From the NCBI RefSeq assembly GCF_028752835.1, contig NZ_CP087952.1:3160501-3224500 (forward strand): DNA of 64,000 nt, given 5' to 3'. Origin of the DNA: Desulfosarcina sp. BuS5. Lineage in GTDB: Bacteria > Desulfobacterota > Desulfobacteria > Desulfobacterales > BuS5. A model generated the notes under the pieces. It worked only from the letters and a program-made list of their open reading frames with translations. It made no database searches and was not told the origin of the DNA. A program made the position numbers and the translations under genes. Below, piece after piece: positions 2 to 59,955 of the stretch (positions within the stretch are counted from its first letter, which is position 1; each line of letters opens with the position of its first letter).

Positions 2-1150
2 ATTATCCAAGAGGGTGAAAGCTATCTTGTTGAATTTAAAGAACGGGTAAACAAACCCCTATCCCGTGAATTGACGGCCTTTGCTAATGCCTCAGGCGGC
101 AGAATTTTCCTTGGCGTGGATAATCAGGGTAATGCAAAAGGCATCACAAATTCAAATACACTTCGTTCTCAGATTCAGGATATTGCGTTTAATTGTCAAC
201 CTTCCATTACCGTCTATATTTCTTCCTTTCAAAATGTTGTCATAATTTCAGTGCCTGAGGGTAAAGATAAGCCGTATCAGTGCAGTGACGGTTTTTTTAT
301 CCGCATGGGCGCAAATTCCCAAAAAACGGGCCGAGACCAACTCGTTGAGTTCTTACAGGCTGAAGGAGTTCTTCGCTTTGAAGAACAATATCATCCCCGA
401 TTTAATTTTCAAAAACATTACAATGCTGAGCGATTGAATGCCTTTTTAAGACTTGCCCACATCAGTAAAGAGCTGGATGATGAACCTATTCTTGAAAATC
501 TGGGCGTAGCCGACCGCCTCGACAAAAAATTAAAAATGAAAAACGCGGGTGTTCTGTTTTTCGCCAAGTCCATCGAACTGCTTTGCGAGCAAGCCACTAT
601 TACCTGCGGTACCTTTGAGGGATCAGATCGCTTTCAGGTGGTCAACCGCAAGGACTACCAGGAAGACCTAATCACCAATATCACTCTATCCATGCATTTT
701 ATCCGGCAGGAGCTGCGGGTCAGGTATGAGATGACCGGAAGTCCAAGAAGAAAAGAGATTTATGAGATCCCACTTGATGCGATTCGGGAAGCGCTGGTCA
801 ATGCGGTCTCTCACCGGGATTATCTGAAAACCGGTAGCCACACGACCGTGGAAATTTTTGATGACCGCATCGAAATATCAAACCCCGGTGGTTTGCCGAA
901 AGGATTAACCGAAAAAGAGTTCGGGAAAAAAGCCGTTCGTAGAAATCAGATTATTGCATCCCTTCTGCAACGAGTGGATCTGGTTGAAAACATGGGTACC
1001 GGTATCCATAAAATCTGGCGACTACTGAAGGACGCTGGCTGCCCAGATCCGAAATTTGAGTTTGACAGCTTTTTTACCATTGTCTTTAAGCGGGATACCA
1101 GCGGGGTTTTTCATGTCCTTGAAAAAAAGTTCGGTGAAAACTACGGATAA
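2..1150 (+). CDS. AlbA_2 (Schlafen/RecG-like) putative DNA-binding protein, 5' partial and frameshifted at its end
   Basis: The frame is open from base 2, so the true start lies before the window. The first visible residues (VEFKERVNK, then AFANASGGRIFLGVD) are the AlbA_2 signature of Schlafen-like DNA-binding proteins often annotated as RecG-like helicases or transcriptional regulators. The middle carries the family's C-terminal ATPase-like block, seen in EALVNAVSHRDY and ENMGTGIHKI. After the run of seven A at 1122-1128 the protein reads a short unrelated tail and stops, while the expected winged-helix tail continues in the next frame (separate entry). Such genes often sit beside mobile or defence DNA. 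Function beyond nucleic-acid binding and regulation is not known. The frameshift may be a real mutation or a sequencing error. Confidence 0.8.
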   Translation: MIQEGESYLVEFKERVNKPLSRELTAFANASGGRIFLGVDNQGNAKGITNSNTLRSQIQDIAFNCQPSITVYISSFQNVVIISVPEGKDKPYQCSDGFFIRMGANSQKTGRDQLVEFLQAEGVLRFEEQYHPRFNFQKHYNAERLNAFLRLAHISKELDDEPILENLGVADRLDKKLKMKNAGVLFFAKSIELLCEQATITCGTFEGSDRFQVVNRKDYQEDLITNITLSMHFIRQELRVRYEMTGSPRRKEIYEIPLDAIREALVNAVSHRDYLKTGSHTTVEIFDDRIEISNPGGLPKGLTEKEFGKKAVRRNQIIASLLQRVDLVENMGTGIHKIWRLLKDAGCPDPKFEFDSFFTIVFKRDTSGVFHVLEKKFGENYG

Positions 1151-1322
1151 GATAATAAAACTTATGCGCGAGAATTTTCAGATAACCATTCCTGAACTGG
1201 CAAATGTTCTTGAAATAACGACTCGCGCGATTGAAAAACAAATCGCCAAATTGCAAAAAAACGGGCGGTTAAAGCGCATCGGCCCGCCTAAGGGTGGGTG
1301 TTGGGAAGTTGTGGATGGATAG
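1122..1322 (+). pseudogene. Out-of-frame winged-helix C-terminus of the AlbA_2 gene
   Basis: This frame encodes a helix-turn-helix segment (ITIPELANVLEITTRAIEK, then the closing motif RIGPPKGGCWEV), which is the usual C-terminal end of AlbA_2-domain regulators. It joins the upstream gene by a one-base shift at the poly-A run 1122-1128. The open frame reaches back to 1056, but those codons overlap the AlbA_2 ORF and look like nonsense. Read with the preceding entry, the two make one normal-length protein, so this is a broken tail and not an independent gene. Confidence 0.7.
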
Positions 1323-1402: not shown

Positions 1403-4400
1403 ATGCAATATCAAAATCCTGTTGCAGTGGTGAAGATTTCCGGAATATTCCCGGGCGCTGATAATCCGCAAATATTCTGGAACAATATCGTTGACAGGGT
1501 CTATGCAGGCTGTGAAATACCGGCCGGGAGATGGATTGTTGAACCGAATTCCATCTTCAATCCTGAATATACTCCTGACAAAGCAATTTCAAAAAAAGCA
1601 TGCCTGATAACCGATTTCCGATTCGACCCGACAAGCATCGACCTTGAGCCGGAATTATTAAAAAATCTGGATCCGCTTTACCATCTTGTGCTGCAGGCCG
1701 GGCGGGAACTTTTATCAGGCATGGAAACGTTCAAACGCGACCGTACCGGGGTAATCCTGGCCGCCATTGCCCTCCCTACGGATGCAACATCATTAATCAC
1801 CAGAAAAATTCTCGGCAAATCCTTTGAAGATAAACTTTTTGGCGATATTGCAACAAACAGTCTGGATTCCATTTCCGCCCATGAGGCTGTCAATGCCGAC
1901 GTAACCTCCCTGCCGGGAGCAATTCTGGCCGAGGCCTTCGGCCTGGGCGGCGGAACCATGACACTTGATGCGGCCTGTGCTTCATCCATTTATGCCGTTA
2001 AACTTGCCTGCGACAAACTGAACATGCACAGGGCGGACATGATGATAGCAGGCGGAGTCTCACGCCCGGAATCCCTTTATACCCAGATTGGATTCAGCCA
2101 GCTTAAGGCGCTCTCACCTTCAGGAATTTGCGCTCCTTTTGACGAGTTTGCAGACGGACTGGTGGTTGGTGAAGGTGTAGGGATGCTGGTATTGAAAAGA
2201 CTTGAAGACGCTCTGGCGGATAATGACAAAATTTACGGTATTATTCGTGGCACAGGACTTTCAAACGATATCCGGGGAAATCTGCTTGCGCCTGATATAG
2301 AAGGCCAGGTCAGGGCCATGACAGCAGCTTATAAGTCTGCGGGATGGACACCCTATGATGTTGACCTGATTGAATGCCATGGCGCAGGCACGCCGGTGGG
2401 TGATAATACGGAGTTGCTGAGCCTGAGAGAGATGTGGGGCGCATCCGGCTGGTCTAAGGGAGCATCATGCGCCATCGGTTCGGTAAAATCGAATATCGGC
2501 CACCTCTTAACCGGCGCAGGCGCTGCCGGAATGATCAAAACCCTCCTGGCTTTAAAAAATGGAATTATTCCGCCTTCCTGTAATTTTAAACATGCTGCGC
2601 CCCAAAGCCCGCTAAACAATAGTCCCTTTAAAGTGCCGACCGAACCGCAAGAGTGGCGCCGGAGAGCCGGGGATATTCCCCGCCGGGCCGCGGTAAGCGC
2701 ATTCGGCTTTGGAGGCATAAACGGGCACATCCTGTTTGAGGAATGGCGCTCCGATCATCCATCCCCGGCTGCAAGTTCGATTAAAGTGCACCAAAGTAAC
2801 GTTCATCAGGTTAAAAATGATCCGGAACCTGAAATAGCCATCATCGGCATGGACGTCTCCTTCGGCTCTTTAACATCCCTGCGGGAATTTCAGGAGACCA
2901 TTTTTTGTGGAGATTCCGTCATTCAAAAAAGCCCCCCCAACCGCCGGCATGGTTCTGAAAAAATAGCTGAAAAACATCTGGGCCGCAAGATGCCATACGG
3001 CGCTTTTGCTGAAGAGCTCTCGCTTCTGATCGGTGAATTCCGCATCCCTCCCAGGGAAATTCCTGATATACTGATTCAGCAGCTCCTGATGCTGAAGGTG
3101 GCGGACGGAGCAATCAAAAACGCGGGAATCAGCATCAAGAATGAAAATCCGCGCGCCGGAGCGATCATTGGAATAGGGTTTGATTTTGAGACTACCGATT
3201 TTACGGTGCGCTGGAACCTGGCCAATGCAATCTCTGAGTGGAAAAAAAAGAGGGATCTGAATTTTGATGATGAAGAGGCCTGGCTTGCAGAACTGAAGCA
3301 TGAAGCCGGGCCGCCTTTAACCGCCACAAGGACACTGGGCTCCCTGGGCAGCGTGGTTGCCAGCCGCATAGCCCGTGAATTCCGTTTTGGAGGGCCGAGT
3401 TTTTCAGTCTCCGGGGAAGAGACTTCCGGCCTGAAGGCCATCCGGATCGGGATGCAGGCTCTACAAAATCATGAAATCGATCTTGCGCTGGCCGGAGCGG
3501 TTGATCTTTGCGGTGATGTGCGGAGCATAATTACTTTTTCGAAAAGCAGAAAATTATCCGAATCCAAAGAAATATATCCTTTTGATAAAAAGGCCGACGG
3601 GACGCTGCCGGGAGAAGGCGCTGCAGCTATTATTATGAAAAGGCTGGATCAGGCCATGGCCGACGGAGACCGGATATACGCGGTAATCAAAGGCTCCGGA
3701 GCAGCATCAGGCGGCGGCATAAATTTGTCTTCTCTTTCCCAAACCGCATACCTGGCGTCCATGCGCAGGGCTTTTAAGGATGCAGATCTTAACCCTTCGT
3801 CAATTTCTTTTTTTGAAGCCCATGGCAGCGGCGACCCGGATGAGGATAGAATAGAAGCGGAGGCTGCTGAAAATTTTTTTACAGGATCTGATTTACAGCA
3901 ATGCGCCCTTGGTTCGCTTAAACCGAATATCGGTCATACCGGGGCTGCCTCCGGTATGGCATCTGTTGTCAAGGCAAGCCTCTGCCTGTTTCAGGAGATA
4001 ATTCCACCCTTAAGAAATTTTAAAACCCCGGCCTGCCCAAGCCTTGCCAATGGCGCCTGGCATATGCCCATTCAGCCGCAGTACTGGCTCCGCAACCGGG
4101 CTGAGGGCCCGCGCCGCGCCTGCGTGGGAGCCTTGACCAATGACGGAAATGTTGCGCATCTAATCCTGGAAGCTTATGAAAATAATACCGATCCGGATTA
4201 TTTAAGCCAAAGCGATATCAAGAGCCCCATCAAGATTAACAGAGAGCGGAAAAGACCCCTTGGTTTTGAAGATTATGGTCTTTTTATGATTGAAGGGGAT
4301 AGCCCGGAAGAGCTCCTCAACGGCTTGGCAGTATTGAAAAATTTTGTAAAAGAGCCATCCTTTACAACAATTCCTGCCGGCAGAGTTGCCGGTCAATGGT

Positions 4401-7400
4401 ATCTGCAATGCGGACATAATCCTCATAAAAAACTGGGCCTGGCCATATCCGCAAAAGATATTCGTGAGCTTGAATTATATATTAATGATGCTGAAAAAAC
4501 AGTTCTCACAGAGACTTTAACCAGAATCGGCATCCGGGGCGGGGTGGCTTATGCGCCTGAACCGCTCGGGCCGGACGCAGAAACAGCTTTTGTTTTTCCG
4601 GGTTCCGGGAATCATTATCTCGGAATGGGCCGGGAGTTGGGAACAAGATGGCCGGAGATTCTGCGCGGCATGGATCAAAAAACCGGGCATCTTAAAACCC
4701 AACTCATACCGGAGCGCTTTGTACCATGGCGGGCATCCTGGCCTGGGGAATGTACGGGGGACTGGAAAGAAAAGGCCTTGCAGGAGATAGAATCGAATGC
4801 ACTTAATATGATCTTCGGACAGGTTGTGCACGGCGGGGTTGTTTCAAATCTGGTCAGAAGTTTTGGAGTCAAGCCGGATGCTGCTATCGGCTACAGCCTG
4901 GGCGAATCTGCCGGGTTTTTTGCGCTGGATGCCTGGCCAGACCGGGGTGAAATGCTCAAAAGGATGCGGCAGACCCGGCTATTTACCACCGAATTGGCCG
5001 GGCCATGCCATGCTGCCCGTCAGGCCTGGGATATTCCCGGCAAGGGTGATCTTGACTGGCATGTTGCCGTTGTTAACAAACCGGCCGGGCCGGTTCGGGA
5101 GGTTATTGCCGATTTGCCTGAAACCAGGCTCCTGATTATAAATACTCCGAACCAGTGCGTGATCGGCGGCATAAAAAAATATGTTGAAGCAGCGATCAAA
5201 CGGCTGAAATGCGACTCTGTGGCGTTAAAAGGTATTGTAACCGTGCATTGCGACGCAGCCGAACCTGTGGCCGAAGCTTATCGGGCTTTGCATCTTTTTT
5301 CTGTTAATACAAATAACAAGATAAAATTTTACAGTTGCGCTTCCGGCCGGGTAAACAAACTTACTACAGAGAGCGCGGCCGACTCAATCCTGAACCAGGC
5401 TTTGCACGGTTTTGATTTTAATAAAACCATTAACCAGGCCTACCAGGACGGAGTCAGGATCTTTCTTGAAATGGGACCCCATGCTTCCTGCACCGGCATG
5501 ATCTCTTCCATACTGGGAGACAGACCGCACCTTGCTGTCTCGGCCTGCTCAAGATATGAAGCCGATCATCGCACAATCATCAAATTGCTCGGCGCTTTGG
5601 TGGCTGAAAGGGTGGCCTTTAATCCTGATCTGCTTTACGGCGAATCTTCGTACCCGCCGGTTTTAGTCAAAGCCGAAAAATCAGGCAGGGAGATCAAACT
5701 GCTGATCGGAAAAAAAGCCCCTCAACCGCATCTGCCGGAGACTAAAACCAGACCTCAAAAAATCATCGCAAAGGCTGAACCTGTTGAAAAGCACGTCAAA
5801 AGCTTGTCACCCTTTGCAGGCCTGGCGGATTCAATGCTCAAAACTGTCTATGCCACCGCCGGTGCGCATCAAACCTTTCTTGAGTTTGCCGATTTTAATA
5901 CCAAAGCATATGCCGAAACCCTTACCTTTCAAAACCGGCTGCTTGAAAAAATGATCGCCGCAGGAGAGCTTCCATCCTTAGTAGTTGAGCCTCCTGAGCG
6001 GGAGATTGCATTTTCAAGAGAAATGTGCCTGGAGTTTGCAACCGGCTCGGTTGCCGCAGTTCTTGGTCCTGAATTTGCGGTAGTTGACACCTGCAAAGCC
6101 AGGGTGCGACTGCCGGATGAACCCCTGATGCTGGTTGACCGCATAATTTCCATTCAAGGAGAAAAAGGGTCAATGGGATCGGGTCGCATTATCACGGAAC
6201 ATGATGTCCTCCCCGGAGCCTGGTATCTTGATGGCGGCCGGGCGCCGGTATGTATCTCTGTTGAAGCCGGCCAAGCCGACCTTTTTCTCTGCTCTTACCT
6301 TGGTATCGATCTTGAGATAAAAGGAACCAGAACATACAGGCTCCTGGATGCAACCGTAAAATTTCACAGCGGATTGCCCCTGGCCGGCGATTTGTTGAGA
6401 TATGAAATTGAAATCGAAAAATTTATCCGCCAGGGCGCAACCTATATGTTTTTCTTTAATTTCAAAGGTACGACAAATGGCCGACTCCTTATCACAATGA
6501 CAAATGGCTGCGCAGGTTTTTTTACGGAAGAAGAGGTGAAGAATTCCGGCGGTATAATCCTTACAAATGAAGATCCGGAACCCACGCCGGGTCAGGCAAA
6601 ATCAAAGCCGCAGCTATGGAAAACCCTGGCGCCTGCTGCAACGGAAGCCTATGACGATGCCGCGGTTGAAGAACTGCGCCAGGGTAATCCATCCGGCTGT
6701 TTTGGGAAGCTTTTTGAAAACAAAGAGATACCATCATCATTGAGACTTCCCGGGGGAAGGATGAGCCTCATCAACCGGGTTCCGGCCCTCGATCCCAACG
6801 GCGGCCGCTTCGGCCTCGGGTTGATCCGGGCTGAAGCAGATATCCATCCGGATGACTGGTTTCTCACCTGCCATTTTGTGGATGACATGGTTATGCCCGG
6901 CACACTGATGTATGAATGCTGCGCCCACACCTTAAGAATTTTTGTCCAGCGGATGGGCTGGATACACGATAAAACCGATGCATGTTACGAACCGGTGGTC
7001 GGCATAGAGAGTATTTTAAAATGCAGAGGCCCTGTTACCCCACAAACAAAGCATGTGATCTATGAGGTCGAAATCAAGGAGGCCGGTTATAACCCCGAAC
7101 CCTATGTGACAGCAGACGCGTACATGTATGCCGACGGTCAGATGATTGTGATGTTTAAGGATATGTCGCTGCGAATGTCCGGCATAACTGAACAAGATCT
7201 GGAAAAATTCTGGTCAATTGAAAAAAAATTACCGCCGTTAAAGCTGAAAACCGAACTCTTTTCTAAAAAAAGGCTGATAGCTTTTGCAAGCGGCAACCCT
7301 TCCGAGGCCTTTGGTGAAAAATATCGTCCTTTTGACAATCAAAGATTTATTGCACGGCTTCCGGGTCCCCCCTTCCTGCTCATTGACCGTATCACCAGGA

Positions 7401-8392
7401 TAGAGGCGGAGCAGTGGCAGCTTAAAGCGGGCGGCTGGATTGAAGCCGAATATGATATTTCTGACACAGCCTGGTATTTCAAAGCCGACCGGTCAACAGT
7501 ACTCCCTTTCAGTTTCCTGCTTGAAATCGCGCTCCAGCCCTGTGGATGGCTGGCGGCCTATATGGGATCAGCCCTGAAAAGCAAGCATGACCTTAAGTTC
7601 CGGAACCTGGACGGCAATGCGGTTCTCCACAGAAATCTTTACTGCCATTCAGGAACGCTTATGGTCAGAACCAAACTGCGCCAGGTTTCAGAAGCCGGCG
7701 ACATGATCATCGAACAGTTTGATTTTCAGGTGTTTCAGGGCGGAGAAATTGTATATGAAGGTGATACAACCTTCGGCTTTTTTACCGAAAAAGCGCTTGC
7801 AATGCAGACCGGGCTTCCGGATGCTGGCAACAAGATTTTTGATAATCATAACCCTGCCCAGCCCGGCATTATTAAAGACCTTGTTCTTGCTGATCTGGAA
7901 CCCTTTACGCCTGATGCTTGTGATAATTACCGAATTGATTCTTCATCGCCACTGGCCATGCCTGCCAAGGCCTTAAAGATGATAGACGAAATAGACCTTT
8001 ATATTCCTGACGGCGGACCTAATGGTTTGGGATTTATCCGCTCTTCAAAACAGGTTGACCCGGATGAATGGTATTTTAAAGCCCACTTTTTACATGACCC
8101 GGTTATACCCGGATCTCTTGGCATAGAATCATTTTTGCAGCTTCTGAAATTCATGGCCCTGCAACGCTGGAATCATTTGGCCGATACCCATCGATTCGAA
8201 CTAATCACATCCGCCAAACAGACTTGGACCTACAGGGGCCAGATTCTTCCCGAAAACCGCTGCATAGAAGTAGAAGCTGTTATAACAGGAATAGATGAGG
8301 AGCCTCCAGCCATCCATGCAGACGGATTTCTTAAAATTGACGGGCTTTATATATATAAGGTTGATGGGTTGGGTATAAAACTTGTAATATAA
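1403..8392 (+). CDS. PUFA-synthase-type megaenzyme subunit (PfaC/Pfa3-like), KS-CLF-AT-DH-DH
   Basis: A 2329-residue multidomain protein. The ketosynthase (about 1-460) has its triad at C192 (DAACASS), H326 (ECHGAGT) and H367 (NIGHL). The second KS-like domain (about 475-925) is a chain-length factor: the cysteine position is E673 while the two histidine motifs remain. An acyltransferase (about 1060-1400) has the nucleophile S1165 in GYSLGES. Two FabA-like double-hotdog dehydratases follow (about 1560-1910 and 1980-2329), with H1824 in CHFVDDMVMPG and H2228 in AHFLHDPVIPG. This order is known from the third subunit of myxobacterial-type polyunsaturated fatty acid synthases; marine PfaC lacks the AT. 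I see no ACP, ketoreductase or enoylreductase, so it must work with partners in trans. Its neighbours are not lipid genes. The product could be a PUFA or another secondary lipid. Confidence 0.88.
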   Translation: MQYQNPVAVVKISGIFPGADNPQIFWNNIVDRVYAGCEIPAGRWIVEPNSIFNPEYTPDKAISKKACLITDFRFDPTSIDLEPELLKNLDPLYHLVLQAGRELLSGMETFKRDRTGVILAAIALPTDATSLITRKILGKSFEDKLFGDIATNSLDSISAHEAVNADVTSLPGAILAEAFGLGGGTMTLDAACASSIYAVKLACDKLNMHRADMMIAGGVSRPESLYTQIGFSQLKALSPSGICAPFDEFADGLVVGEGVGMLVLKRLEDALADNDKIYGIIRGTGLSNDIRGNLLAPDIEGQVRAMTAAYKSAGWTPYDVDLIECHGAGTPVGDNTELLSLREMWGASGWSKGASCAIGSVKSNIGHLLTGAGAAGMIKTLLALKNGIIPPSCNFKHAAPQSPLNNSPFKVPTEPQEWRRRAGDIPRRAAVSAFGFGGINGHILFEEWRSDHPSPAASSIKVHQSNVHQVKNDPEPEIAIIGMDVSFGSLTSLREFQETIFCGDSVIQKSPPNRRHGSEKIAEKHLGRKMPYGAFAEELSLLIGEFRIPPREIPDILIQQLLMLKVADGAIKNAGISIKNENPRAGAIIGIGFDFETTDFTVRWNLANAISEWKKKRDLNFDDEEAWLAELKHEAGPPLTATRTLGSLGSVVASRIAREFRFGGPSFSVSGEETSGLKAIRIGMQALQNHEIDLALAGAVDLCGDVRSIITFSKSRKLSESKEIYPFDKKADGTLPGEGAAAIIMKRLDQAMADGDRIYAVIKGSGAASGGGINLSSLSQTAYLASMRRAFKDADLNPSSISFFEAHGSGDPDEDRIEAEAAENFFTGSDLQQCALGSLKPNIGHTGAASGMASVVKASLCLFQEIIPPLRNFKTPACPSLANGAWHMPIQPQYWLRNRAEGPRRACVGALTNDGNVAHLILEAYENNTDPDYLSQSDIKSPIKINRERKRPLGFEDYGLFMIEGDSPEELLNGLAVLKNFVKEPSFTTIPAGRVAGQWYLQCGHNPHKKLGLAISAKDIRELELYINDAEKTVLTETLTRIGIRGGVAYAPEPLGPDAETAFVFPGSGNHYLGMGRELGTRWPEILRGMDQKTGHLKTQLIPERFVPWRASWPGECTGDWKEKALQEIESNALNMIFGQVVHGGVVSNLVRSFGVKPDAAIGYSLGESAGFFALDAWPDRGEMLKRMRQTRLFTTELAGPCHAARQAWDIPGKGDLDWHVAVVNKPAGPVREVIADLPETRLLIINTPNQCVIGGIKKYVEAAIKRLKCDSVALKGIVTVHCDAAEPVAEAYRALHLFSVNTNNKIKFYSCASGRVNKLTTESAADSILNQALHGFDFNKTINQAYQDGVRIFLEMGPHASCTGMISSILGDRPHLAVSACSRYEADHRTIIKLLGALVAERVAFNPDLLYGESSYPPVLVKAEKSGREIKLLIGKKAPQPHLPETKTRPQKIIAKAEPVEKHVKSLSPFAGLADSMLKTVYATAGAHQTFLEFADFNTKAYAETLTFQNRLLEKMIAAGELPSLVVEPPEREIAFSREMCLEFATGSVAAVLGPEFAVVDTCKARVRLPDEPLMLVDRIISIQGEKGSMGSGRIITEHDVLPGAWYLDGGRAPVCISVEAGQADLFLCSYLGIDLEIKGTRTYRLLDATVKFHSGLPLAGDLLRYEIEIEKFIRQGATYMFFFNFKGTTNGRLLITMTNGCAGFFTEEEVKNSGGIILTNEDPEPTPGQAKSKPQLWKTLAPAATEAYDDAAVEELRQGNPSGCFGKLFENKEIPSSLRLPGGRMSLINRVPALDPNGGRFGLGLIRAEADIHPDDWFLTCHFVDDMVMPGTLMYECCAHTLRIFVQRMGWIHDKTDACYEPVVGIESILKCRGPVTPQTKHVIYEVEIKEAGYNPEPYVTADAYMYADGQMIVMFKDMSLRMSGITEQDLEKFWSIEKKLPPLKLKTELFSKKRLIAFASGNPSEAFGEKYRPFDNQRFIARLPGPPFLLIDRITRIEAEQWQLKAGGWIEAEYDISDTAWYFKADRSTVLPFSFLLEIALQPCGWLAAYMGSALKSKHDLKFRNLDGNAVLHRNLYCHSGTLMVRTKLRQVSEAGDMIIEQFDFQVFQGGEIVYEGDTTFGFFTEKALAMQTGLPDAGNKIFDNHNPAQPGIIKDLVLADLEPFTPDACDNYRIDSSSPLAMPAKALKMIDEIDLYIPDGGPNGLGFIRSSKQVDPDEWYFKAHFLHDPVIPGSLGIESFLQLLKFMALQRWNHLADTHRFELITSAKQTWTYRGQILPENRCIEVEAVITGIDEEPPAIHADGFLKIDGLYIYKVDGLGIKLVI

Positions 8393-9303: not shown

Positions 9304-9304
9304 T

Positions 9305-9538
9305 GTAACCGTTCACGGTTACAAGCGGCATAATTTCCTGTTTATAAATTGAATCTCAGGCCATCAACGTAAGGCGGGACAGCTACTTTGGTGGATTCGT
9401 CGCTTACGCTCCTTAATCCACCCTACGGTTCAAAAGCAACGTAAGTTTGTAGGGTGGATTAAGCGAAGCGAATCCACCGAAACCTGCTGTATTTTTCAAC
9501 CGTTAACTGTGAACCTATAACCGTGAACGGTTACAAAA
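9305..9538. repeat. Repeat cluster: two GTAACCGT palindromes around a GTAGGGTGGATTAAG hairpin
   Basis: Near-palindromes at 9305-9322 and about 9519-9534 share arms GTAACCGT and ACGGTTAC. Between them, 9390-9426 and 9449-9478 form an imperfect inverted repeat with arms beginning GGTGGATTCG and GTAGGGTGGATTAAG. The whole cluster separates the broken toxin from the truncated transposase. The 20 bases at 9519-9538 recur exactly at 31088-31107. Confidence 0.6.
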
Positions 9539-10428
9539 GAATATACAAAACATCCTTCGTATGACTGTTTTATCTCTGCTTGCGGACAAGCCTCAAAAAA
9601 ATTTAAGCAAACAGTACTTGCATTTTTTGCACCCCCAAAGGTTTCGACAAAAGCTCGATTCATGAATATTCATCTAATGGTGAAATGGGCTGAAATGGTT
9701 CTTAAGCACTCACCACGGGGGCGAGTTTCAAAGGACCCTGTAGTTTCAAAACTTAGGAATTATCTTGGTAAACTTCCTGAATATAAACAGTTTATCAAGC
9801 GATTTCTTCGTGATGCATCTCCTCTTTTAAAAAGCCAGGAAATTCTTAAAGCTCAAGGCTTGAATATGAAAACCTACAAAGAGTGCAAAGAACTTTTAAA
9901 AAATATCCCTCAAAGCTCTCAAGTACGTATCGGTTTTATTACCTGGATGGAAAAACAATTAATAGTCGCTGAATCATTGGGCATGGGCAATACTGGAATG
10001 CCTATTTGTTCTGATAATATTGAATCCCTGTTTGGACTTGGTAAAACACATGGTACAGGAGAAGTAAAAGATGCAAACCGAATTGCACTTCGTTTACCGG
10101 CTTTTTGCGGATCTGTGAATAGAGAATCCGTTCGGATGGCAATGGACGTCACAGTAAAGGAACAACAGGAAGTTGAAAATAAGTTGTTGTCTTTAACTCG
10201 GCAGCGCCGAAAAATTTTACCAACCCCGGAAGCCTTACAGATAGTTTGTCAACTGAGTTTGACTGTGGTTTAACTCTTCTACCGGTGCCAAAAAATGATG
10301 AAAAATCAAAAGATGTAACTGATATTACAGCAAATTTTGAACAATTAGGTGGGCCCGTAAATAAGTTTACAAAACAACCTTATGCGCCTAATAATGCCAT
10401 GAACAGTTTAATGAACCTGTATCAATAA
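9536..10428 (+). pseudogene. Transposase remnant, 5'-truncated and frameshifted
   Basis: An ATG-initiated frame of 203 residues runs 9662-10273, but coding-like sequence in the same frame reaches back to about 9536, where the palindromic repeat begins, so the N-terminus is missing. SDNIESLFG resembles the catalytic-glutamate region of DDE transposases. Near 10243 the protein appears to pass into the next frame (DSLSTEFDCGLTLLPVP) and ends at 10428. No terminal inverted repeats were found. I cannot assign the IS family from the sequence alone. Confidence 0.6.
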
Positions 10429-13113: not shown

Positions 13114-14169
13114 TTAATTTACTATTATTATGCAACCTAAATTTTGTGAAACAGAACCTATTATGGCGGCTGTGCTCATCCCCTTTTCCTTAAGCTCAAA
13201 CAACAGGCTGTCCGCCTGGCGTGATTCTACGCATATAAGCAGACCTCCTGATGTCTGCGGATCAAACAGAATATCCTGAAGGGCACGATCCACAGAGGGT
13301 GCGATATCCGTCATCGGCTCCCTGAACTCCCGGTTTCTGTATGTTCCCGCGGGCACAAGTCCCATGGCCGCAAATTCCATAGCCTCCGGAATTATTGGAA
13401 GTTTATCAGAAATAATTTCAATCCCGTATCCTGATTCACTTACCATTTCAGCAAGATGGCCTATTAGTCCGAAACCTGTAATGTCGGTGCAGGCATGCAC
13501 CGGATAATTAACTATAACTTCCGCAGCGGTCCTGTTCAGCTCCGCCATCAGGGCTGTGACTGATTCTGTAGTTTCAACGGAAGCAATTCCGCCCTTGATC
13601 GCGGTATTAATAATGCCGGTGCCCAGCGGCTTGGTAAGAATCAGGCGATCACCCGGCATCAGGTTTTTCTTTACAAGGATACGGTCAGGATGGACAAAAC
13701 CGGTTACAGAGAGCCCGTATTTTAATTCATTATCATCTACGCTGTGCCCCCCCACAAGAACCATCTCCGCCTCTTTCATCTTGACCAGGCCACCTTCAAG
13801 AATCCTGCGCAGTACGGACATGTCCATCTGTTTTGAAGGGAAACAGACTATATTCATGGCTGTTTTCGGCACACCACCCATGGCATATATATCACTTAAT
13901 GCATTTGCCGCGGCTATCTGGCCGAACATGTACGGATCATCTACCACGGGTGTAAAAAAGTCGAGAGTCTGGATTATGGCAAGATCTTTTGTGATTCTGT
14001 AAACACCGGCATCATCAGCGCTTTTCAGTCCTACAATAAGGTTCGGATCAGTTGGAAATTGCAATCCGCATAATGCTTTGTCCAGGTCCCCCGGAGCAAG
14101 TTTTGATGCTCAGCCGGAACCTGAAACAGTTTCAGTGAGACGAAGATTTTTAAATTCTTTGTTCATCAT
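13114..14169 (-). CDS. selD: Selenide, water dikinase (selenophosphate synthetase), selenoprotein
   Basis: Makes selenophosphate from selenide and ATP. A conventional ORF begins only at 14064, but the frame continues upstream through a single TGA at 14110-14112 to tandem ATGs at 14169 and 14166, giving the missing N-terminus with GSG-U-ASKLAPGDLDKAL. In SelD this is the active-site position occupied by Cys or selenocysteine, so the TGA is read as Sec20. AGGGGA lies about 7 bases before the ATG. The rest is normal for the family (SADDAGVYRI, DIYAMGG, TDITGFGLIGHL, DPQTSGGLL), total 351 residues. It sits with yedF and a LysR regulator. Confidence 0.92.
14110..14112 (-). other. In-frame UGA read as selenocysteine in selD
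   Basis: This TGA is flanked on both sides by SelD-family sequence in one frame. The bases just downstream on the minus strand are GC-rich (CTTGCTCCGGGGGACCTGG) and could form a short bacterial SECIS hairpin, but I could not fold it. Use of Sec requires selA, selB and selC, none of which is in the window. Confidence 0.85.
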
Positions 14170-14292
14170 TAAGTTCCCCTGGTTATCTATCTTGATAGAG
14201 TTGATAGACTGATTTGTCAAACAGGATTTTTCGATATATTAATGGTTTGCTATTGGTGATACTGATGAAAAATCTTAGGGTGTGGTGGGTGT

Positions 14293-59391: not shown

Positions 59392-59955
59392 ATGGGTATT
59401 ATTTATCCCGTCATACTACCTGTGCCTGAAAAAGATCAGATCCTTTCCGGCAGGGAAAAGGTATTATACTTAAGCCGGCACGCAAGAAAAGCTCTTGCAG
59501 TTTCAGCGCGTAAAAATGGATTTGTTTTAACCGAATTAGTAAAAGATGACCAGGGGGCACCCAAGCCATTTGATGGAAAATGCTGGTCTATCACCCACAA
59601 GGATGAATATGTCGGTGGTGTGGTCTCACCAGCAAGGATTGGAATCGATATAGAAAAAATCAAGTCATGCTCCAAGTCTCTTTTTAAGAAAACGGCAAGT
59701 CAAAAAGAATGGTCTCTTTCTGATGAAGAACCGGATCGACTTTTTTTTAGATACTGGACCGCCAAAGAGGCTGTAATAAAGGCAAACGGAACAGGCATCA
59801 AAGATCTTTTAAAATGTAATGTTATAAAAATTATGGATAAAAATCGACTTGTTGTGGGTTATATGGATAATACCTGGATAGTTGAACATTTTTTTTTTAA
59901 CGGGCATATAGCATCTGTCGTTAAAAATTCAAAAGTAATAGAATGGGTGTTTTAG
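59392..59955 (+). CDS. 4'-phosphopantetheinyl transferase superfamily protein
   Basis: A 187-residue Sfp/AcpS-superfamily protein with the Mg and CoA motifs IGIDIEK and FRYWTAKEAVIKANGTGI. It transfers phosphopantetheine to carrier proteins. It is shorter than Sfp at the N-terminus. It could activate the carrier domains that the 1.4-kb megasynthase needs, but the two are 51 kb apart and the link is a guess. It lies 14 bases after rsmI. Confidence 0.85.
   Translation: MGIIYPVILPVPEKDQILSGREKVLYLSRHARKALAVSARKNGFVLTELVKDDQGAPKPFDGKCWSITHKDEYVGGVVSPARIGIDIEKIKSCSKSLFKKTASQKEWSLSDEEPDRLFFRYWTAKEAVIKANGTGIKDLLKCNVIKIMDKNRLVVGYMDNTWIVEHFFFNGHIASVVKNSKVIEWVF

Follow-up and report, generated by a model that had tools for sequence, protein, structure and literature searches.

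The closest described counterpart of the gene analysed here is the pfaBC fusion with the domain order KS-CLF-AT-DH2 that Shulse and Allen (2011) classified as Type C and that comes from Desulfatibacillum alkenivorans AK-01 (PMC3098273). According to the same survey, Types D, H, I, and L also have pfaBC fusions, that of L with another domain order, PfaB is encoded by a separate gene in Types A and B, and the ole genes are either linked to pfa clusters or located apart from them (PMC3098273). The product of Type C was listed there as uncharacterised in 2011, and its 4'-phosphopantetheinyl transferase (PPTase) as having the PUFA-type motifs, P0 and P1b; the deltaproteobacterial Type I was suggested to feed olefin synthesis, with C31H46 of Geobacter bemidjiensis cited in this context (PMC3098273). 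Working in E. coli with gammaproteobacterial genes, Allemann et al. (2019) found that OleA links Pfa to a 31:8 ketone (PMC6463001), and Lofeudo et al. (2026) described PfaB as a terminal acyltransferase and presented the structure of S. baltica PfaB (PMC12895367).

The gene described here lies in a 64,000-nucleotide stretch of the genome of Desulfosarcina sp. BuS5 (the window). With a probability of roughly 70%, we consider it to be pfaBC of a complete secondary-lipid (Pfa) synthase in a Pfa-Ole polyunsaturated-hydrocarbon pathway, the ancestral locus of which was broken into four pieces. That the gene encodes PfaBC of a scattered working synthase is suggested because its partner genes are present elsewhere in the same genome. 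As far as it can be likened by description to Type C pfaBC, it shares with it the KS-CLF-AT-DH2 order, PfaA and PfaD as partners, and a deltaproteobacterial host. However, Type C is encoded by one gene cluster, whereas here the three subunit genes lie 0.29–1.24 Mb apart, and the Type C PPTase, with its PUFA-type motifs, is encoded nearby, whereas here the PPTase gene lies about 51 kb from pfaBC and its product lacks these motifs by eye (PMC3098273). As in the Pfa-OleABCD systems of Shewanella and Photobacterium (PMC6463001), both enzyme sets occur in one genome, and many relatives within the order have pfaBC and oleA adjacent; in contrast to those systems, the product here is predicted from the genes, and the host is a deltaproteobacterium, presumed to be anaerobic from the group of a same-genus MAG. 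A limited literature search revealed no published account of a scattered pfaA/pfaBC/pfaD arrangement. Within that search, the enzyme, the fusion, and the Pfa-Ole logic are already known, and the complete scatter and the order-wide pairing of pfaBC with oleA are new.

Domain organization of the megasynthase gene

The gene is a single intact ORF with an ATG start, as seen in the ORF list (Table 1). Pfam searches at E up to 1 found in its product two N-terminal and two C-terminal ketoacyl-synthase stretches, one Acyl_transf_1, and four FabA stretches, placing KS, CLF, AT, DH, and DH in this order within a single protein, as in a PfaBC subunit, and found none of the ACP, KR, and ER families in the 2,329 aa. 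We read the four FabA stretches as two probable catalytic hot-dogs, each with a degenerate one ahead of it; the dehydratases match FabA-type PDB chains. When KS and CLF are aligned locally, E673 of CLF falls opposite C192 of KS, which points to a KS with the catalytic Cys followed by a CLF without it, again as in a PfaBC subunit. An earlier note on this DNA had described just these domains, with C192, E673, and S1165 and without ACP, KR, or ER, and its description was borne out by Pfam, the KS-CLF alignment, and an alignment of motifs.

The motif alignment comprised 20 proteins, namely the window protein and 19 of 21 relatives, as two with shorter frames were dropped and one was kept despite its truncation. 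Both KS His motifs, like the KS Cys motif, were found in 19/20 of the aligned proteins, whereas all 20 have the AT Ser motif GYS(L/I)GE as well as the His in each of the two DH motifs. The best solved structure for the KS-CLF part is 6riw, deposited as ORF10 (E 8.6e-125), which covers both KS and CLF. We take 6riw to be Moritella marina PfaC, which would make the KS-CLF parts of the two proteins alike, but PfaC has no AT. For the AT, the best solved structure is PfaB (9ry8), with the GYS(M/L)GE motif, but the AT scores below the cut-off of the PfaB family model TIGR02816, and here it is fused between CLF and DH, with no room for the KS-like domain that PfaB has of its own.

Table 1. Features of the window; positions are counted from its first base.
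Feature	Position	Strand	Basis or remark
AlbA_2/HATPase_c_4 gene, 390 aa, beginning 23 bases before the window	2..1322	+	
pfaBC-type megasynthase gene, KS-CLF-AT-(psiDH-DH1)-(psiDH-DH2), 2,329 aa	1403..8392	+	ORF, Pfam, dN/dS 0.14
N-terminal domain of KS; active-site Cys192 encoded at 1976-1978	1415..2212	+	PF00109; DAAC(A/S)SS, 19/20 aligned proteins
CLF N-terminal domain; Glu673 (codon 3419-3421) in place of the catalytic Cys	2831..3655	+	Second PF00109 stretch; KS-CLF alignment; site variable among aligned relatives
PfaB-type acyltransferase; Ser1165 within GYSLGE (codon 4895-4897)	4514..5632	+	TIGR02816, 86 bits, below the cut-off of 144.3; best PDB match 9ry8 'PfaBs', E 3e-21
Degenerate FabA-like hot-dog preceding DH1	6110..6496	+	PF07977, 35 bits
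FabA-like dehydratase DH1, CHFVDDM motif	6746..7156	+	PF07977, 116 bits; CHF 20/20
Degenerate FabA-like hot-dog preceding DH2	7358..7762	+	PF07977, 40 bits
FabA-like dehydratase DH2, AHFLHDP motif	7961..8362	+	PF07977, 112 bits; AHF 20/20
MazE-like antitoxin ORF, 80 aa, then short PIN ORF, 119 aa	8632..9217	+	Behind pfaBC
Perfect 18-base inverted repeat, 196 bases between its arms	9304..9535		Perhaps a small mobile element
ORF near-identical to L017:842-1606 (-)	9662..10270	+	No Pfam match
SelD-like frame	13117..14199	-	Named by eye; in-frame TGA near the start (SGSG*A)
4'-phosphopantetheinyl transferase, 187 aa; candidate activator of the PfaA ACPs	59392..59955	+	Only PF01648 match in the genome

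Partner genes elsewhere in the genome

The genome (4,175,088 bases on two contigs, 97.3% complete) encodes the partners that a PfaBC subunit would need. PfaA, a protein of 2,139 aa with the order KS-AT-ACP-ACP-KR-DH and hence two ACPs, is encoded at C1:1919889-1926308 and passes TIGR02813 (1,458 bits versus a cut-off of 1,010), and PfaD, encoded at C1:2212951-2214630, passes TIGR02814 (601 bits versus a cut-off of 449). Alongside these Pfa synthase genes, the genome has four adjoining oleABCD-type genes at about C1:3638863-3643531, which share a strand and are arranged as oleA-B-C-D. The gaps between the matches are 1,239 kb for pfaBC and pfaA, 287 kb for pfaA and pfaD, 950 kb for pfaBC and pfaD, and 474 kb for pfaBC and oleA. 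The earlier note had called the gene an orphan without its partner subunits, which holds for the locus and fails for the genome: the PfaA with tandem ACPs and the PfaD for which it had proposed to search are encoded 1.24 Mb and 0.95 Mb away, and together with the PPTase and the oleABCD-type genes they bear out its own alternative that the partners are encoded elsewhere.

When the 18.4 kb upstream of pfaBC and the whole window were searched by tblastn with PfaA, PfaD, OleA-D, and PPTase of the same genome, no pfa or ole partner but the PPTase was found, and the PfaA query matched pfaBC itself at KS, CLF, and AT. The earlier note had held that partner genes just upstream of base 1 of the window would speak against an orphan; judged by eye, the genes in the 18.4 kb before pfaBC include thrS, AlbA_2, a gene for glutamate dehydrogenase, and IS genes. 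The PPTase, also by eye, has no P0 motif, and where the PUFA-type P1b would be expected it carries WSITH, which is P1b'-like. Being the sole PPTase match, it would need to serve FAS II and PfaA alike, unless the missing 3% of the genome or its masked bases conceal another one.

The assignment of the ole candidates differs from gene to gene. The OleA candidate passes NF006720, a model named 3-oxoacyl-ACP synthase III (473 versus a cut-off of 285), and at E up to 1e-20 it matches 12 PDB entries, which are 3fk5, 3row, 3s21, 4kti, and their kin; we take 3row, 3s21, 4kti, and kin to be Xanthomonas OleA. For the OleC candidate, the NF006754 score is above the cut-off (730 versus 478), but the scores on two olefin beta-lactone synthetase models are below theirs (608 and 601 versus cut-offs of 900 and 850), and a PDB search at E up to 1e-40 gave no match. 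The OleD candidate also stays below the cut-off (403 and 384 versus 580), and the OleB candidate matches dehalogenase-type models only, below their cut-offs, its PDB matches being hydrolases and dehalogenases. No olefin-specific model reaches its own cut-off for the ole candidates. The four putative Ole names come from model or PDB matches and gene order, those of OleB and OleD from gene order and sub-cut-off matches.

The earlier note had also considered an unusual synthase that uses ACP, KR, and ER of FAS II instead of the distant PfaA and PfaD. Nothing specific favours such borrowing, although a stand-alone ACP gene and a FabF-type KS gene do sit together elsewhere in the genome. It is unneeded; the genome has both PfaA and PfaD, each under constraint, and the arrangement at one locus of pfaD, pfaA, and pfaBC in the related genomes G066, G003, and G070 also argues against it, so that we find it hardly credible. 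FAS II without a dehydratase, reported for D. autotrophicum in an excerpt of the 2011 survey (PMC3098273), is refuted here by a stand-alone 156-aa frame of the FabA/FabZ family. A further ketosynthase match, in a seemingly gigantic frame, turned out to be a masked-base artefact and not a giant protein.

Selection on the pfa genes and probable break-up of the locus

Compared with one same-genus genome (G049), pfaBC has a dN/dS of 0.14 over 2,314 codons, and of 0.05–0.28 in each of eight parts, with the AT-DH linker highest. The dN/dS of PfaA is 0.30 versus G098 (1,020 codons) and 0.12 versus G049 (505 codons), and that of PfaD is 0.18 over 515 codons; the neighbours of these genes gave comparable values (rlmN, 0.25 and 0.19; xerD, 0.09). 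Thus, the dN/dS test that had been proposed for this gene reads as purifying selection on a gene that appears to be maintained.

A relic, or a gene decaying after its separation from an operon, as also envisaged in the earlier note, would fit the long stem branch (0.85) that leads to the G000/G049 pair among the PfaBC proteins, the probably broken neighbours, and the lack of promoter signal above chance: a promoter and terminator scan of the region gave 11 sites versus 11.0 in shuffles, and 8 versus 11.2. However, the ORF is intact in two species, its catalytic motifs are kept, none of its eight parts has lost constraint, and PfaA and PfaD are likewise constrained. These results speak against a relic, and we give it very little credence.

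Probable traces of an ancestral arrangement are visible at the separated genes. In the window's genome, pfaD still lies beside xerD and an M24 peptidase gene, as in G066, G070, G003, and G049 (in G273 it has these neighbours too, with one gene between), and pfaA directly adjoins rlmN, an arrangement shared with G049 and G098. No pfa gene lies near pfaBC of G049 on its 14-kb contig, and the outer neighbours of the gene differ there from those in the window, but a trace of the same PIN gene lies behind it (44-aa match, L051:10600-10731). On the simplest reading, an ancestral locus had already been disrupted by the time the genus began to diversify.

As to the genes next to pfaBC in the window, the earlier note had reported a broken AlbA_2 gene and a broken toxin–antitoxin pair. 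This was borne out in part. A 3' frameshift in the AlbA_2/HATPase_c_4 gene is likely, because its end is shared with a winged-helix ORF that is read in a different frame; the pair consists of the MazE-like and PIN ORFs of the sizes given in Table 1. The near-identical ORFs that flank pfaBC are probably remains of the same IS element, and could be linked to rearrangement. Farther along the window, the SelD-like frame, which is followed by a TusA/YedF-like gene, probably encodes a selenocysteine-containing selenophosphate synthase, because of the in-frame TGA near its start.

Linkage across the order and the proposed pathway

We searched 291 genomes of the order with cut-offs of E up to 1e-30 for PfaBC, 1e-60 for PfaA and PfaD, and 1e-40 for OleA, and found matches in 201, 208, 213, and 200 genomes for PfaBC, PfaA, PfaD, and OleA, respectively. 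The places of the genes were counted for the best 148 of 201 PfaBC, 149 of 208 PfaA, 149 of 213 PfaD, and 150 of 200 OleA genomes, with one match per genome (second matches of G104, G235, G085, and G213, among others, were left out); in draft genomes, genes on different contigs are uninformative for linkage. Among the matches listed, and with kinship ignored, oleA lies at most 2 kb downstream of pfaBC on the same strand in 90/122 genomes, farther than 2 kb on the same contig in 6/122 (2,048 bases away in G144, and between 100 kb and 1.8 Mb away in G000, G070, G115, G167, and G214), and on a different contig in 26/122. Among the same matches, oleA was never found within 2 kb of pfaA (0/122) or pfaD (0/116). 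In a tree of the CLF-AT-DH part of 41 PfaBC proteins from the order, in which many deep forks are weakly supported, the four rows in which oleA shares the contig but is not next to pfaBC require four separate changes.

The two enzymes also co-occur. With kinship ignored, an OleA match was present in 184/201 genomes with PfaBC (absent in 17/201) versus 16/90 without it, or, when strong matches only were counted, in 132/160 versus 33/131. In the 160 genomes with strong PfaBC matches (E up to 1.6e-180), OleA was weak only (E above 1e-100) in 19 and absent in 9.

Among the matches listed, pfaBC and pfaA share a contig in 37 of the 112 genomes with PfaBC, PfaA, and PfaD (within 30 kb in 28, and 38 kb to 3.6 Mb apart in 9), and pfaA and pfaD do so in 65/112 (within 30 kb in 63). 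Thus, pfaBC is apart from pfaA in several of these genomes and pfaA is split from pfaD in two only, which are the window's genome and G054. In G066 and G003, a single locus carries, in order, M24 peptidase, xerD, pfaD, pfaA, pfaBC, oleA, oleB, oleC, and oleD. Other genes separate pfaA from pfaBC in both genomes, and a single gene separates pfaD from pfaA in G066.

It could be argued that the scattered synthase is complete but makes a membrane polyunsaturated (or hydroxy) fatty acid, and that Ole uses other acyl chains. The set of Pfa parts is complete, pfaBC is not linked to oleA in this genome, and in G216, which keeps pfaD, pfaA, and pfaBC together, another gene directly follows pfaBC and the OleA match is weak, all of which would suit a fatty-acid product. 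In contrast, the adjacency of oleA among the matches listed and its co-occurrence with PfaBC indicate OleA as the usual taker of the chain, and we regard a fatty-acid product as unlikely. The adjacency and co-occurrence in relatives support the predicted condensation of Pfa-made chains by OleA.

In the Pfa-Ole pathway that we favour, PfaBC, PfaA, PfaD, one PPTase, and the four oleABCD-type genes are seen in the sequence, and we infer the working from them. The PPTase would charge both ACPs of PfaA, and the KS, AT, and KR of PfaA would extend and reduce a malonyl-fed chain. The KS-CLF and the two dehydratases of PfaBC would act in trans on the PfaA ACPs in chain extension and the setting of double bonds, with PfaD reducing enoyls. 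The finished acyl chain would be removed by the PfaB-type AT, and two such chains would be condensed head to head by OleA. From the condensed chains, OleBCD would form a long polyunsaturated hydrocarbon, which in Shewanella is 31:9. Rearrangements in this lineage would probably have split what was once a single locus.

On this reading, an apparent orphan becomes part of a concrete and testable pathway to a polyunsaturated hydrocarbon by an oxygen-independent route, and OleA is named as the likely acceptor enzyme for a synthase type whose product was uncharacterised in 2011. Synthase subunits of this kind would not need to be encoded together, and genome-mining rules that require a pfa cluster would miss such genomes. 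A wider proposal, which we put forward tentatively, is that Pfa synthases throughout the order serve mainly to make hydrocarbons, that PfaBC hands the chain to OleA by means of its terminal AT, and that the pair is kept even where pfaDA is distant; in the genus of the window even the pfaBC-oleA link would be dispensable, and the products of four scattered loci would form one megacomplex in trans.

A different arrangement was seen in G273 (L095, L096), in which pfaBC is followed by oleB-oleC-oleD, with no oleA at the locus and a weak OleA match elsewhere in the genome.
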